From NCBI GenBank assembly GCA_003134995.1, contig PLDC01000015.1, positions 310,001 to 374,000 of the forward strand: a stretch of 64,000 nt of DNA, given 5' to 3'. Within the stretch, counting starts at the first letter, position 1. Every line of letters starts with the position of its first letter. The DNA comes from Acidobacteriaceae bacterium (GTDB lineage Bacteria > Acidobacteriota > Terriglobia > Terriglobales > Acidobacteriaceae). Both the position numbers and the translations under genes were made by a program. The notes beneath the pieces were generated by a model, which saw only the letters and a program-made list of their open reading frames with translations, was not told the DNA's origin and made no database searches. Below, one piece after another: positions 14,417-41,478 of this stretch.

Positions 14417-14516
14417 GCGACTGGCGGAACCTCACCTGCATCTGCTAATTCGGCACCATGTTTAGTAGACTCCGTATAACCGAGGTAGGGTCCCCGATCG
14501 AACTGTGTGTTTTGCG

Positions 14517-15650
14517 ATGGTGGACAGCCAGTTCTTCGACGAATCACGCGAGCAGTCGCAAATCAAGGCCCGGATTGTCCAGAAGTATTTTTGGGCGTGG
14601 GCGAAAGTCATCATTCCGACTGTTAAGAGACACGACAATCGCATTCTCTACATGGACCTTTTTGCAGGGCCGGGACGATACGACGATGGCACGCTCTCGA
14701 CACCTCTACTCGTGCTTCAGAAGGCTATCGACGATGCCGATATGCGGAGCATGCTCGTTACACACTTCAACGACAAGAATGCCGATAGCGCTGGTAAGCT
14801 GAAAGCCGCGATACGGGCCCTTCCAGGAATTAACAAGCTAAAGCAAAAGCCGATCGTCTCCAATGAACTCGTTGGCGAGGAGATCGAAAAGAAGCTCGCC
14901 GGTCTGCGGCTCGTGCCGACATTCTTTTTTGTAGACCCTTGGGGCTACAAGGGACTTTCCTTGGGCCTGATCAGCTCTGTTCTCCAGAACTGGGGCTCCG
15001 ACTGCGTATTTTTCTTTAACTACAATCGCGTCAACATGGGACTCAACAATGATGCTGTTCGTCAGCATATGGACGCTCTGTTCGGGCAAGAACGCGCGGA
15101 GGATCTTCGCACCGAACTTGTCGGATTGTCCCCCGGCGACCGCGAAAGGCTTATCGTCGAAGAAATATCAGCGTCACTTAAGGAAAAGGGGGCGGCGTAC
15201 GTTCTCCCTTTCACGTTCAAGAACGAATCCGGCAGACGGACGAGCCACCACCTGATATTCGCGACAAAGGCCTTCCGGGGTTACGAGATTATGAAGGAGA
15301 TCATGGCCAAGGAAAGTTCGGAACACCATCAAGGAGTGGCTTCCTTTGAGTACTCTCAGGCATCGGAACGATTTCCTATACTGTTTGAACTGGCCAGACC
15401 CTTAGACGATCTTGCCGAGATGTTGTTAACGGATTTTGCCGGTGAATTAGCGACGATGGATGACATTTATCTCAGGCACTGCGTGGGAAGGCCCTACATA
15501 AGGAGCAATTACAAGCGGGCACTAGCTGGCTTGGAGGAGAGGCGTAAGATCACGGTAGACCCGCCTGCTGCTGATCGCCCAAAGAGAAAAGGTGAAGTGA
15601 CCTTCGCGGATAGTGTCCGAGTCACTTTTCCGAGGAGACGGAAAAAATGA
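14517..15650 (+). CDS. Three-Cys-motif partner protein TcmP
   Basis: Member of the TcmP family, defined by occurrence next to three-Cys (Gp37/Gp68) proteins; no function is established that I know. The about 377-residue protein has a Rossmann/methyltransferase-like signature LYMDLFAGPG (about 47-53) and FFFVDPWGYKG (about 141-147, where amino-methyltransferases carry DPPY), followed by FFFNYNRVNMG, and a basic C-terminus. ATG 14517 is preferred to a GTG four codons earlier. The stop codon overlaps the next start (ATGA), implying coupled translation. The gene looks more AT-rich than its neighbours, hinting at transfer. Confidence 0.85.
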   Translation: MVDSQFFDESREQSQIKARIVQKYFWAWAKVIIPTVKRHDNRILYMDLFAGPGRYDDGTLSTPLLVLQKAIDDADMRSMLVTHFNDKNADSAGKLKAAIRALPGINKLKQKPIVSNELVGEEIEKKLAGLRLVPTFFFVDPWGYKGLSLGLISSVLQNWGSDCVFFFNYNRVNMGLNNDAVRQHMDALFGQERAEDLRTELVGLSPGDRERLIVEEISASLKEKGAAYVLPFTFKNESGRRTSHHLIFATKAFRGYEIMKEIMAKESSEHHQGVASFEYSQASERFPILFELARPLDDLAEMLLTDFAGELATMDDIYLRHCVGRPYIRSNYKRALAGLEERRKITVDPPAADRPKRKGEVTFADSVRVTFPRRRKK

Positions 15651-16468
15651 GCGAACACTCTCACATCGAATGGACCGACGCGACCTGGAATCCTGTGCGC
15701 GGCTGCACGAAGATCAGCCCAGGCTGCAAGCACTGCTATGCCGAGACGTTTGCGGAGCGGTTTCGCGGGGTTAAGGGACATCCGTATGAGCAAGGGTTCG
15801 ATCTGCGTCTTGTTCCAGCGAAGCTGACCGAGCCATTTCTTTGGCGCTCGCCCAAGCTCGTATTTGTGAATTCGATGAGCGATCTTTTCCAGGATGGTGT
15901 GCCGGACGACTACATCGAAGCGGTTTGCAAGGTCATGGTAAATGCGAACTGGCATACGTTCCAGGTGCTCACGAAAAGATCGGCGAGGCTGAAGGAGTTG
16001 CTGAGCGGTCGGCTGCGTTTTGCCGCCGAACAAGACCACATCTGGTGGGGCGTGAGCGTTGAGGATCAGGAGTATGGCTTGCCTCGAATCGGCGATTTGC
16101 AGAAAGCGCCGGGCCGAGTTCGCTTCTTATCTATCGAACCGCTGCTCGAAGATTTAGGGATGTTCGACCTATCCGGAATCAGTTGGGCCATTGTTGGAGG
16201 CGAGAGCGGGCCGGGCGCGCGTCTAATGCGAGAGGAGTGGGTTATCTCGATCCGCGATCAGTGTCTAGAATCGCGTGTCCCATTTTTCTTCAAGCAGTGG
16301 GGCGGAGTGAGGAAGGCGAAACACGGCAGATTGCTTGAAGGTCGAACCTACGACGAATATCCCCGGCGGATTGCCTCGCCAATTCCGGATCGCGCCAGTT
16401 GCGTAGCCATCCTGAATTCGTTTCGGCAGGTTTTTTCAGGAGGGTCGCTGGTTCGAATCACAGCTTAG
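15647..16468 (+). CDS. Gp37/Gp68 family (DUF5131) three-Cys protein
   Basis: A 273-residue member of the phage Gp37/Gp68 family. The N-terminal GCTKISPGCKHCY places cysteines 20, 27 and 30 in a C-x6-C-x2-C cluster like that of radical-SAM proteins, suggesting an Fe-S/SAM enzyme; activity is unproven. Further motifs: VNSMSDLF, VLTKR, WWGVSVE, LSIEPLL and WAIVGGESG. It overlaps TcmP by four bases. The last codons (GGSLVRITA) are encoded by a stretch resembling a tRNA T-arm, so the native 3' end may have been replaced during integration. Confidence 0.85.
   Translation: MSEHSHIEWTDATWNPVRGCTKISPGCKHCYAETFAERFRGVKGHPYEQGFDLRLVPAKLTEPFLWRSPKLVFVNSMSDLFQDGVPDDYIEAVCKVMVNANWHTFQVLTKRSARLKELLSGRLRFAAEQDHIWWGVSVEDQEYGLPRIGDLQKAPGRVRFLSIEPLLEDLGMFDLSGISWAIVGGESGPGARLMREEWVISIRDQCLESRVPFFFKQWGGVRKAKHGRLLEGRTYDEYPRRIASPIPDRASCVAILNSFRQVFSGGSLVRITA
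16436..16464 (+). other. tRNA T-arm-like fragment, possible attachment-site remnant
   Basis: GGAGGGTCGCTGGTTCGAATC followed by ACAGC resembles a tRNA variable loop plus T-arm (stem GCTGG, loop TTCGAAT, imperfect 3' strand). No D-arm or anticodon arm lies upstream, so it is not a whole tRNA. Confidence 0.4.
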
Positions 16469-17102: not shown

Positions 17103-17537
17103 TCAAATGATTTCGATTGTCTCGTCGAGGAACTTCTTATCAGCCTCGTCAGAGCCCGCTAGTTCGAACGAATTTGTGAGCGAAGCGCTTCCCTTTTCCA
17201 CGCTGGTGATGACGTACGAGCAACCGATCCAGTGGGCTTCGGCAAGATCGGTCTGCGACCAGCGGGCCGGGTGGTCGGGGTGGGAGTGGTAGAAGCCGAC
17301 AATATCTTCGCCGCGCTCGCGGCCCTGGCGTTGAATGCGTACCAGTTCGCCGGGATCGATGTTGTAACGGTTCTGGGGCGAGTCGGTACGAGTGTTGCCG
17401 CAGCGGGCGGTCGAGGTCACGATGCGAGTGCCGGCGTCATCCGTGCGGCCGAGCAGTACGCCGCAGCATTCGTGTGGGTAAGTCTCTTCGCCGTGGCGGC
17501 GGATGGCAGCGTAGTCTGCTTGGATGAGTTTCAGCAT
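17103..17537 (-). CDS. mec: Mec-like JAMM/MPN+ zinc peptidase
   Basis: A 144-residue stand-alone JAMM domain. Zinc and catalytic residues are complete: Glu23 (PHECCG), His84-x-His86, Ser94 and Asp97 in HSHPDHPARWSQTD. In Mycobacterium, Mec releases cysteine from the CysO-cysteine adduct; related JAMM peptidases trim C-terminal residues after a Gly-Gly in sulfur carriers. cysM lies 125 bases upstream on the same strand, and a CysO-like gene with a masked Gly-Gly is 6 kb away, which supports this role. A TATGAT five bases before the ATG suggests its own leaderless transcript. Confidence 0.85.
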   Translation of the reverse strand: MLKLIQADYAAIRRHGEETYPHECCGVLLGRTDDAGTRIVTSTARCGNTRTDSPQNRYNIDPGELVRIQRQGRERGEDIVGFYHSHPDHPARWSQTDLAEAHWIGCSYVITSVEKGSASLTNSFELAGSDEADKKFLDETIEII

Positions 17538-17662: not shown

Positions 17663-18649
17663 TTATTCTGTCCAAAATCTCTCGCTCAAGTATTTGTCGC
17701 CTGAGTCGCAGAGGATGGTAACAATAACAGGTTGCCTCTCGCCGCTCAGATCAAGTTGCTCAGCAACTCCGAGGCTGCCCGCGAGACCCGCCGCGGCTGA
17801 GACTCCGAGGAGCAATCCACACTCTCGGGCGACGCGGCGGGCCATAGCGTAGGCCTCTTCGGTCGCGATCTCAAGATTTTCATCCGCCAGCGTCGCATCG
17901 TAGATTTTCGGAACGATGGCTGTCGCCATGTGCTTGGCTCCTTCGATGCCGTGAAAGGAGGAATCGGGTTGCAACGAGATGCAGCGGATTGTAGGATTGA
18001 GTTCCTTCAGACGCCGAGTGGTTCCCATGAACGTGCCGCTGGTGCCAAGCATGGCGACAAAGTGAGTGATCCGCCCCTGGGTTTGTTGCCAGATTTCGTT
18101 GGCCGTGCCGTGATAGTGAGCCAGCCAGTTTGCGTCGTTGGAGTATTGGTCGGCGTAGAAATATAAATCCGGATGCTTGGCGGCCAGTTCCCGGGCCGCG
18201 CGGATGGCGCCGTCGGAGCCGTCGCCGGGGTCGGTATAAATAATGTCTGCGCCGTAGACGCTCAGGATTTTTTTGCGCTCGGCGGAAACGTTCTGCGGCA
18301 TGCAGAGTGTGACCGGAAATCCTTCCGCCGCGCCCAGCATGGCATAGGCAATCCCGGTGTTTCCGCTGGTGGCATCGAGCAGGATTTTGCCCGAGCTGAA
18401 CTTTCCGCTGCGCCGGCCCTCGGCAACAATGTTCGATGCGGCGCGATCTTTCACCGAGCCGCCGGGATTATGCCATTCGGCCTTGCCCAAAAGTGTTACG
18501 GCGGGAAGATGGCTGGTGAGCTCGTCAAAACGAAGCAATGGAGTGTTGCCAATGCGGTCGAGCAAACTCAGCCCGGGGCGCGGAACGGCTGGCTTCGGCG
18601 CATGATGCGCGGGAGAAGCTTCCTCCAGTTTGGCCGAACTCTGACCCAT
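17663..18649 (-). CDS. cysM: Cysteine synthase, CysM type (PLP-dependent)
   Basis: Fold-type II PLP enzyme that forms the C-S bond of cysteine from an activated serine. PLP lysine about 67 in NPGGSVKDRA, TSGNTGIAYA for the substrate carboxylate, GTSGTFMGTTR for the PLP phosphate and a C-terminal LCDSGDKYLS. Sequence such as GIEGAKHMA and LGVSAAAGLAGSL resembles the mycobacterial CysM that uses a protein-bound thiocarboxylate (CysO) as sulfur source. An N-terminal extension of about 25 residues is present. Adjacent to mec, same strand. Whether it takes O-phosphoserine or O-acetylserine cannot be decided here. Confidence 0.88.
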   Translation of the reverse strand: MGQSSAKLEEASPAHHAPKPAVPRPGLSLLDRIGNTPLLRFDELTSHLPAVTLLGKAEWHNPGGSVKDRAASNIVAEGRRSGKFSSGKILLDATSGNTGIAYAMLGAAEGFPVTLCMPQNVSAERKKILSVYGADIIYTDPGDGSDGAIRAARELAAKHPDLYFYADQYSNDANWLAHYHGTANEIWQQTQGRITHFVAMLGTSGTFMGTTRRLKELNPTIRCISLQPDSSFHGIEGAKHMATAIVPKIYDATLADENLEIATEEAYAMARRVARECGLLLGVSAAAGLAGSLGVAEQLDLSGERQPVIVTILCDSGDKYLSERFWTE

Positions 18650-23676: not shown

Positions 23677-24027
23677 ATGAGCACGATTCACATTCCTACT
23701 CCTCTGCGGCAGTATGTGGGCAAACTTTCCAGTGTAGAAGTAACAGGCGCGACTGTGGGCGAAGCGATGACTTCGCTCGCGGCCCTGTATCCGGACGTGC
23801 GCAGGCACCTTTACACCGAAGATGGCAAGCTGCGCTCCTTCGTCAACCTGTATGTGAACGATGAGGATATTCGCTACCTGCAGAAGGAAGAAACCGCGGT
23901 GAAGGAGGGTGATAACATTTCGATTGTGCCTTCCATTGCCGGGGGCGCTGGAGTTTCCTCCACGTCCGAAGGCTCCACCGCGTCTGTCATCCCGAGCGGA
24001 GCGAGGGATCCTGGTTTCTGCCTGTAA
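23677..24027 (+). CDS. cysO: CysO/MoaD-like sulfur carrier with C-terminal extension
   Basis: Ubiquitin-fold sulfur carrier. Residues 1-90 match MoaD/CysO; the stretch FVNLYVNDEDIRYL is strikingly like mycobacterial CysO, as is the end SIVPSIAGG. Normal carriers stop at Gly-Gly (here 89-90), which is adenylated and thiocarboxylated. This one continues 26 residues, the last part (SVIPSGARDPGFC) being encoded by a dispersed repeat. The tail should block adenylation until removed, which the Mec-like peptidase could do (inference). The MoeZ-like gene follows after 18 bases, so the two are surely co-transcribed. Confidence 0.87.
   Translation: MSTIHIPTPLRQYVGKLSSVEVTGATVGEAMTSLAALYPDVRRHLYTEDGKLRSFVNLYVNDEDIRYLQKEETAVKEGDNISIVPSIAGGAGVSSTSEGSTASVIPSGARDPGFCL
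23985..24022 (+). repeat. Dispersed repeat inside the cysO 3' end
   Basis: GTCATCCCGAGCGGAGCGAG then GGATCCTGGTTTCTGC. The core TCCCGAGCGAAGCGAGGGATC also occurs twice, inverted, at 41377-41398 and 41446-41467. Confidence 0.8.
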
Positions 24028-24045: not shown

Positions 24046-25212
24046 ATGGCTACACTCACTACGGAAATTCCAGTCACGCTGAGCAAGGACGAAATCCTGC
24101 GCTACTCGCGCCATCTCATCATGCCCGAGGTTGGCATGGAGGGGCAGAAGAAGCTGAAGGCAGCGCGCGTGTTGTGCATTGGCACGGGAGGGCTCGGGTC
24201 GCCGCTGGCTTTGTATCTTGCGGCTGCGGGTGTCGGTACGCTGGGGCTGGTGGATTTCGATGTGGTGGATTACACGAACCTGCAACGGCAGATTATTCAC
24301 TCAACGGCCGACGTGGGGCGCAAGAAACTGGATTCGGCGGCCGAGAAGCTGACGGCGATCAATCCGTTTTTGAATATTAAGAAATTCGACACGCGATTGA
24401 GCAGCGAAAACGCGCTCGAAATTTTTCGTGACTTCGACATCATCGCCGACGGCACCGATAATTTTCCTACGCGTTATCTCGTGAATGACGCATGTGTGCT
24501 CACCGGAAAGCCGAACGTTTACGGATCGATTTTCCGGTTTGAGGGGCAGGCTAGCGTTTTCGCCACAGAGGATGGCCCGTGCTACCGCTGCCTTTATCCA
24601 GAGCCGCCACCGCCGGGGCTGGTTCCATCGTGCGCGGAGGGCGGTGTGCTCGGCATCCTGCCGGGGCTGGTGGGTGTGATGCAGGCTACTGAAGTGATCA
24701 AATTAATTCTCGGAGCGGGCGAGCCGCTGATTGGGCGGTTGCTGCTGATTGACGCGCTGGGCATGAAGTTTCGCGAATTGAAGCTAAGGAAAAATCCTGA
24801 TTGCCCGGTCTGCGGCACGCATCCTACTCTCACGAAGCTGATAGACTACAACGAGTTTTGCGGCATTCGCGGGGAGGAGAAACCTGTGGGCAGTGGAGTT
24901 CCGGAAATTCAAGTGGAAGAATTGAAGCGGCGGCTGGACGCGAAGGAGGATGTGTTCGTCCTCGATGTGCGCGAGCCGCATGAATATCAGATCTGCAACC
25001 TGGGCGGACACCTGATTCCGCTGAACGATCTTCCGAATCGCGTACACGAACTGGATTCGAGCCGCGAGATCGTGGTGCATTGCAAGATGGGTGGGCGCAG
25101 CGCCAAGGCAGTAGCGTTCCTGCAGCAATCGGGCTTCAGCAAAGTTCACAATCTCGCCGGCGGAATTAATGCCTGGGCCGAGAGAGTGGACCCCAAGGTG
25201 CCGAAGTATTGA
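24046..25212 (+). CDS. moeZ: MoeZ-like sulfur-carrier adenylyltransferase/sulfurtransferase (ThiF-rhodanese fusion)
   Basis: E1-like enzyme that adenylates the C-terminal glycine of a sulfur carrier and loads sulfur via its rhodanese domain. ThiF/MoeB domain about 15-275: nucleotide loop GTGGLGSPLA (47-56), DFDVVDYTNLQRQ, zinc cysteines 179, 182, 253 and 256, crossover Cys near 196. Rhodanese domain about 285-385 with persulfide Cys346 in HCKMGGRSAKAV. Length 388 is close to mycobacterial MoeZ (392). Co-transcribed with the CysO-like gene; a strong terminator follows. It may also serve molybdopterin or thiamine carriers. Confidence 0.92.
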   Translation: MATLTTEIPVTLSKDEILRYSRHLIMPEVGMEGQKKLKAARVLCIGTGGLGSPLALYLAAAGVGTLGLVDFDVVDYTNLQRQIIHSTADVGRKKLDSAAEKLTAINPFLNIKKFDTRLSSENALEIFRDFDIIADGTDNFPTRYLVNDACVLTGKPNVYGSIFRFEGQASVFATEDGPCYRCLYPEPPPPGLVPSCAEGGVLGILPGLVGVMQATEVIKLILGAGEPLIGRLLLIDALGMKFRELKLRKNPDCPVCGTHPTLTKLIDYNEFCGIRGEEKPVGSGVPEIQVEELKRRLDAKEDVFVLDVREPHEYQICNLGGHLIPLNDLPNRVHELDSSREIVVHCKMGGRSAKAVAFLQQSGFSKVHNLAGGINAWAERVDPKVPKY

Positions 25213-41347: not shown

Positions 41348-41376
41348 AGCAAAGCTCTCAGCTCAGATGCTTGCCG

Positions 41377-41467
41377 TCCCGAGCGAAGCGAGGGATCTCG
41401 GTCCCTGCCGGGCGCTATGAGTAGCGACACCGTGGGCAGAAACCAAGATCCCTCGCTTCGCTCGGGA
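41377..41467. repeat. 22-bp perfect inverted repeat between accD and folC
   Basis: TCCCGAGCGAAGCGAGGGAT plus CT at 41377-41398 and the complement at 41446-41467, 47 bases apart. Same core as the repeat at the end of cysO. Confidence 0.88.
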
Positions 41468-41478
41468 TGACATCACAG

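Follow-up and report, generated by a model that had tools for sequence, protein, structure and literature searches.

Genes at the carrier locus

The 64,000 nt stretch of Acidobacteriaceae DNA that we analysed (the window) harbours a gene for a CysO-like sulfur carrier, which is followed by a gene for an E1-like enzyme with a rhodanese domain, and genes for a JAMM metallopeptidase and a cysteine synthase are located on the opposite strand (Table 1). Pfam ThiS matched residues 4-90 of the carrier (E 1.2e-13), and its nearest solved relative is CysO of M. tuberculosis (3dwg chain C, E 2.6e-17). The end of this chain coincides with the position of Gly-Gly in the window protein (residues 89-90, nt 23941-23946), which is not encoded with a Gly-Gly end and runs on for 26 codons. 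AlphaFold2, applied with an alignment of 18 sequences, resulted in a mean pLDDT of 76 with a mostly confident core, and in values below 50 for residues 89-116, the tail being without predicted structure. PSIAGG is invariant in the same alignment, and no conservation is seen past it. A sequence-only reading of the region had proposed the CysO-like identity, the Gly-Gly at residues 89-90 followed by 26 codons, and a JAMM peptidase about 6 kb away. Our analysis confirmed these points, the peptidase ORF lying 6.1 kb from cysO.

The E1-like protein, which starts 18 nt past the cysO stop, matched Pfam ThiF (E 3e-85) and Rhodanese (E 3e-16). Among the NCBIfam models, PRK08762 scored above its cut-off (481 bits, cut-off 449), and PRK07411 (568 bits, cut-off 633) and PRK07878 (MoeZ; 511 bits, cut-off 647) scored below theirs. 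The nearest PDB sequences of the JAMM peptidase, 2kcq (E 8e-25) and 2kks (E 2e-10), are filed without a specific name; the metal motif H-S-H-P-x6-S-x2-D, as read by eye, is intact in the window peptidase and aligns with both. For the synthase the best NCBIfam model was cysM, with 332 bits versus a cut-off of 394. No window protein reached the NCBIfam equivalog cut-offs for CysM, desampylase or SAMP1, and the exact protein names are therefore provisional. Elsewhere in the window, at 14505-16468, an ORF (14505-15650) that presumably resembles a three-Cys-motif partner protein overlaps a DUF5131 gene.

Table 1. Features of the carrier locus (positions refer to the window)
Feature	Position	Strand	Basis or remark
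CysO-like carrier ORF	23677-24027	+	116 codons, 116 residues
CysO-like carrier, beta-grasp core with PSIAGG end	23677..23946	+	Pfam ThiS, 3dwg_C, alignment
26-codon tail AGVSSTSEGSTASVIPSGARDPGFCL	23947..24024	+	predicted to be unstructured and removed
Core of dispersed repeat GTCATCCCGAGCGGAGCGAGGGATC, read as VIPSGARD	23986..24010	+	inside the tail
Stop codon TAA of cysO	24025..24027	+	
E1-like adenylyltransferase with C-terminal rhodanese domain (MoeB/MoeZ type)	24046..25212	+	Pfam, NCBIfam MoeB models
JAMM/Mec-like metallopeptidase, motif HSHPDHPARWSQTD (read by eye)	17103..17537	-	Pfam Prok-JAB E 9e-26
CysM-like cysteine synthase	17663..18649	-	Pfam PALP; upstream of the JAMM gene, same strand

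Residues beyond Gly-Gly in relatives

The cysO regions of 119 relatives were collected, which together with the window gave 120 loci. Of these, 119 were parsed, and G248 was excluded, its contig ending at the motif. The parser demanded [IV]AGG, hence the conservation of the motif is partly built in, but no locus other than G248 failed; the spelling is PSIAGG in 114 loci, PAVAGG in four and PSVAGG in one. CysO ends at Gly-Gly in a single parsed locus (G068). A tail of 1-31 residues is present in 103 of the 119 genes, and in the remaining 15 the frame continues into E1. One extra residue is encoded by 17 of the 104 unfused genes, two by 32, and seven or more by 43 (maximum 31); tails of at least 26 residues are found in four, among them the window. 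In the window's genus (37 members, window counted) the tail comprises two residues in 22 carriers, one in three and at least four in twelve, and neither its length nor its sequence is conserved. A second set of 80 named loci, mostly from Acidobacteriota with a few from other phyla and partly overlapping with the first set in its assemblies, comprised 31 CysO-E1 fusions and 49 short tails, and none that ends at Gly-Gly. In the CysO-E1-rhodanese fusions of G078, G063 and G070, Gly-Gly is buried within a polypeptide of 475-491 residues.

A masked CysO is the rule in this lineage, and the window tail is no anomaly. The sequence-only reading had taken Gly-Gly for the normal C-terminus, which is wrong here in view of the one carrier among 119 that ends there. 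It had also named close relatives ending at Gly-Gly as an observation that would speak against maturation; we looked for them and found none among the 37 genus members.

Carrier and JAMM genes were each matched in 76 of 81 genomes searched, for the carrier in some cases with the paralogue only. In all 29 genomes outside the genus that have a CysO match at E <= 1e-20, a JAMM match lies upstream of cysO on the same strand, at a distance of 12-655 nt and in 26 of them of less than 200 nt. The JAMM gene is not adjacent to cysO in the window's genus: it is found about 5-6.5 kb away in nine genomes (window counted), about 99 kb away in G027, and on a different contig or not at all in the other members. 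Residues beyond Gly-Gly and a linked JAMM gene are both observed, the latter in a non-adjacent position in the genus. A second ThiS-like carrier, a paralogue, likewise extends past Gly-Gly by two residues in 30 of 40 copies and stops there in four, so that short masks are not confined to the JAMM-linked carrier. In the genome of the window (G000) this second carrier (L140 1495-1776, minus strand, G000:C27) directly follows the threonine synthase gene thrC and ends with Gly-Gly-Thr-Ile.

The tail of the window protein contains the core of a dispersed repeat (Table 1). With up to two mismatches the core was found at 93 sites in the 5.6 Mb genome, compared to none for a reversed-pattern control, and with up to three mismatches at three sites within the window, compared to none in 100 shuffles. 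The bases that follow the core in the tail, from about TGG onward, are similar to the bases that flank other copies (29 copies compared), and the last 13 tail residues are read from core and flank. Many sites are arranged as inverted pairs with a spacing of about 75 nt; a pair of this kind, with 3 and 1 mismatches and 74 nt from start to start, is located at 41373-41471 of the window. Five other genus genomes read CysO into the repeat, G023 (tail of 20 residues) and G044 (27 residues) in the frame of the window and G040, G018 and G017 in another frame; PMXH01000227.1 shows the G023 tail again, stems from the same assembly and is no independent case. The repeat lies between cysO and E1 in eight genus members (G000, G017, G018, G019, G023, G028, G040, G044). 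A literature search for the core returned no description, just one unrelated paper.

These data explain the length of the window tail in good part by the repeat. The view that a long tail is special to this protein was not supported. At the window junction the stop codon beside Gly-Gly has been lost and the frame runs through a repeat fragment; the resulting tail of 26 residues probably has no function in itself.

Cysteine codons between carrier and E1

The intervals between cysO and E1 were searched for cysteine-rich frames, with the 15 fusions and G306, in which the E1 motif was not found, excluded from all interval tests. A frame in which four or more of seven residues are Cys, within twelve codons of its stop, is present in 22 of the 37 genus intervals and absent at this threshold from 15. 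Dinucleotide shuffles gave a mean of 0.06 such intervals and a maximum of 1 in 200 rounds, and the reverse strand gave none. Usually the leader is a separate short ORF between the two genes, with candidate starts mostly 15-18 codons ahead of the stop, and several of the peptides read like (M/L)KPxxxxRCCxCCPSCx. The stop codon is UAG in 22 of 22 leaders; for comparison, UGA terminates 16 of the 22 genus cysO genes with two extra residues. In the 15 leaders that end with CPxCx, variation among the Cys and Pro codons two to four positions before the last residue is confined to the third base, and all 15 have TGT as next-to-last codon. The CysO tail itself forms the Cys run in G030, G047-G050 and G350. 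In a Granulicella isolate (L346) the tail of CysO has the ending GCCR. No hairpin follows the genus leader (mean z 0.24 over 22). Since the strict consensus pattern of this leader occurs once in each of four out of 51 genomes and always at the junction, a dispersed repeat as its identity is unsupported; the pattern misses diverged copies, and 31 of the 45 genus genomes were in the sample.

At the junction of the window itself a leader is absent (best Cys score 1), and neither the strict pattern nor R1, the covariance model described below, had a match in G000. The leader has probably been lost there. With a threshold of at least three Cys in seven, a leader is present in none of the eight carriers of the repeat versus 23 of the 29 other genus members (p 0.00008, kinship uncontrolled), G033 being counted as a non-carrier because its own Cys codons contain the searched string. 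Outside the genus, nine of 66 intervals reach three Cys, compared to a mean of 0.5 and a maximum of 3 in mononucleotide shuffles and to one on the reverse strand. Intervals with a Cys run or with the ending found in family f5 (see below) are longer than the others (41 with a median of 209 nt versus 62 with a median of 155 nt; p 9e-6, kinship uncontrolled). The linkers that join CysO to E1 in the fusions showed no Cys run. In G061 (L120) a frame ending GCCCCR-stop precedes the CysO-E1 fusion, within the gap of ~190 nt after the JAMM match; this is perhaps the same leader, moved upstream.

In the family f5, CysO continues past Gly-Gly with a few residues and mostly [L/I/M]-R-C-[I/V/T]-C-x-stop, for the most part R-C-I-C-S. 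A hairpin follows, and its first G is supplied by the final base of the UAG stop. Most of these tails contain two Cys codons only; the exceptions have Q, C or G in place of R, and one copy is without the first Cys. The corresponding DNA pattern was detected in 20 of 151 genomes, all of them from f5, and the control gave none. The covariance model R1 had strong matches (E < 1e-5) in 28 of 299 genomes, solely in f5, and in 25 of the 29 f5 genomes of the pattern search. Scores outside f5 did not exceed 21.2 bits in the 299 genomes, and the idea that the element is common in the class was rejected.

The pair statistics for the f5 hairpin are mixed, and the alignment had been fitted to the structure that was tested. 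In the lower stem 93.8% of the cells pair, versus 92.4% in shuffles, of which 7 out of 500 reach 93.8%. The covariation score and the number of both-side-changed cells exceed all 500 shuffles, and both-side-changed pairs (1) and further pair types (4) do not exceed them. Sequence and length of the upper stem are variable, yet it has at least three pairs in 28 of 30 cases, with a mean z of -2.4 against shuffled interiors. No U-run is present at the hairpin. Rfam gave no gathering-score match in the window between 16000 and 26000 or over the loci of 20 relatives, and known RNA families were rejected as identity of the junction elements.

The f5 element was inspected in 29 loci. In 22 it is the tail of CysO, always in frame and, where the locus extends that far, preceding E1. 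In G090, G190, G206, G214, G234 and G250 it is free and lies 110-300 nt before a cysteine synthase gene, and in G174 it stands free before a second carrier that is followed by a cysteine synthase. The synthases of G090, G206 and G234 score above the NCBIfam cysK cut-off, those of G190 and G214 are partial and below it, and those of G250 (partly masked) and G174 were judged from sequence alone. The free leader of G250 (L253), MPVKVITPTSSIAGSTVLRCICT, has 23 codons and matches start and end of a cysO gene, of which it retains the start, SSIAG and an R-C-I-C-T end. In a blastn comparison with L248 both flanks align, with some 230 nt of carrier sequence absent. As judged from this alignment, the G250 leader is apparently a whole cysO gene that has shrunk, its tail having outlived the carrier. 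The leader exists in three forms, as a separate ORF, as the carrier tail, and as a free leader before cysteine synthase.

A proposed precursor carrier and its disposable tail

The M. tuberculosis CysO/CysM/Mec/MoeZ system comprises the same four kinds of protein as the window, a ThiS-family carrier, a CysM-like synthase, a JAMM peptidase and an E1-rhodanese protein, as described in an excerpt of PMC3227635. The mycobacterial CysO (3dwg_C) ends at Gly-Gly, whereas the Gly-Gly of the window protein is masked, and an extra maturation cut would therefore be needed compared to the M. tuberculosis pathway. According to the same excerpt, mycobacterial Mec hydrolyses the CysO-cysteine adduct, a bond of the same kind (PMC3227635). 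Operons with ThiS/MoaD, E1-rhodanese, JAB and cysteine synthase were listed for an acidobacterium (code Susi) by Iyer, Burroughs and Aravind in 2006 (PMC1779556, row 4c), who proposed that JAB frees the carrier C-terminus in cases where the carrier is part of a fusion; the short variable tails, the CysO-E1 fusions of this lineage and the cysteine-codon leader are undescribed in the part of that paper considered here. As stated in a section of PMC8832034, DRJAMM of Deinococcus cuts a MoaD-MoaE fusion to a C-terminal Gly. It shares with our proposal that a JAMM peptidase frees a carrier by a cut after Gly, but its substrate is a fusion of two enzymes of the molybdopterin pathway and not a leader-bearing tail. 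The usual two-residue tail of the window's genus resembles the QbsE and HcyS precursors; the pathways differ.

QbsD acting on QbsE, like HcyD on HcyS, is a JAMM peptidase that removes a few residues after Gly-Gly. For the CysO proteins studied here, we strongly infer from the comparison of loci that cleavage by the JAMM peptidase after Gly-Gly is likely and the best explanation of the masked carrier. Maturation at this site, as proposed in the sequence-only reading, stands as a prediction: conservation stops at Gly-Gly, some carriers are fused to E1, and the JAMM gene is co-located. CysO would be made as a precursor in a CysO/CysM/JAMM/E1-rhodanese cysteine pathway, and the JAMM peptidase would cut it after Gly-Gly. 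The freed glycine would be adenylated and then thiocarboxylated by E1-rhodanese, CysM would contribute the serine-derived carbon, and the peptidase that acts in maturation would also release cysteine. The stretch past Gly-Gly would evolve freely, from two residues to dozens or to a whole E1, because it is discarded. It could also be that another protease trims the tail, or that just a fraction of CysO may be matured.

Other explanations of the window tail have to be considered. It is highly improbable that the extension results from an error in sequencing or assembly, as the sequence-only reading had considered: 25 of the 37 genus members stop one or two codons past Gly-Gly, but the genome is listed as 100% complete with 0.03% contamination, the repeat with its 93 sites is genuine, and five further genus genomes also read from CysO into it, on which grounds this explanation was rejected. 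We also consider it improbable that the tail has a function that is particular to this protein, such as that of a recognition or inhibitory peptide that is removed on a signal. The open frame of 26 codons and the G044 and G023 tails that read the repeat in the same frame would be in agreement with such a role, but length and sequence are unconserved in the genus, the last 13 residues derive from the repeat core and its flank, and the tail is unstructured in the model. Alternatively, the tail might just be tolerated, with E1 inactive on a decaying window CysO and cysteine sulfur supplied by another route. The loss of leader and of the stop beside Gly-Gly, the repeat at the junction and the second ThiS-like carrier after thrC fit this idea. 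Since the core has retained the alignment-invariant residues up to Gly-Gly, E1 starts 18 nt past the CysO stop, and the nearby genes for CysM and JAMM have open frames with matches to their families, we regard it as unlikely.

The tail of CysO probably doubles in relatives as a cysteine-responsive leader peptide, as suggested by its Cys codons next to the stop and by the position of the element. A ribosome short of Cys-tRNA would stall at the Cys codons of leader or tail and alter the expression of the downstream cysteine genes; at the f5 tail the stalled ribosome would cover the 5' arm of the hairpin. The step that follows stalling may involve Rho, coupling or another mechanism. The leader would come at no cost to the carrier, provided that the tail peptide is removed. 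The Cys-rich leader could instead be a metal- or redox-responsive peptide or, in f5, an RNA element such as a riboswitch with an incidental R-C-I-C-S. This is possible but in our view less likely: the nucleotides CTGTA..TAGCC are invariant in an alignment of 22 f5 sequences, the genus leader always stops with UAG and the f5 hairpin pairs overlap the stop codon, but the third base of the Arg and Cys codons is variable whereas the encoded residues are mostly kept, and the f5 element in the 29 loci inspected stands solely before E1, a CysO-like carrier or cysteine synthase.

Polycysteine sORFs of mycobacteria are cited as attenuators reported by Canestrari et al. (2020). Short ORFs with Cys codons near the stop, located before cysteine genes, are common to these actinobacterial and mycobacterial leaders and the junction leader. 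For actinobacterial cys operons, upstream leaders with Cys codons had been predicted in 2005 by Seliverstov et al. (PMC1262725), and clear terminators were lacking there as well. The leader studied here differs from those of these sources in its place inside the operon, where it separates the genes of carrier and E1; in one family the carrier's own C-terminal tail constitutes the leader. No description of a tail that doubles as cysteine leader was found in the literature, most subscription journals being outside the search. The new part of our proposal is this disposable carrier tail that doubles as a cysteine leader in relatives.

We consider it quite likely that, taken as a whole, the window CysO is the precursor carrier of a JAMM-matured cysteine pathway, with a tail that is free to change, that serves as a leader in relatives, and that has lost this function in the window. 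We would give an even chance to the more specific view that, in part of the Acidobacteriota, the CysO tail discarded by JAMM is the leader of a cysteine attenuator that sets E1 expression, the genome of the window representing the state after its loss.

Sulfur carriers are bacterial cousins of ubiquitin. The near-universal masking of CysO would make precursor maturation by a JAMM peptidase, a hallmark of ubiquitin biology, the rule in a pathway of primary metabolism. Tails of 0 to 31 residues and the fusions to E1 offer many natural substrates for defining the requirements of the peptidase. Should the tail also act as leader, one stretch of mRNA would sense cysteine while the pathway's own protease would dispose of the encoded peptide, and this would provide a simple route for leader peptides to arise from, or to merge with, real genes.
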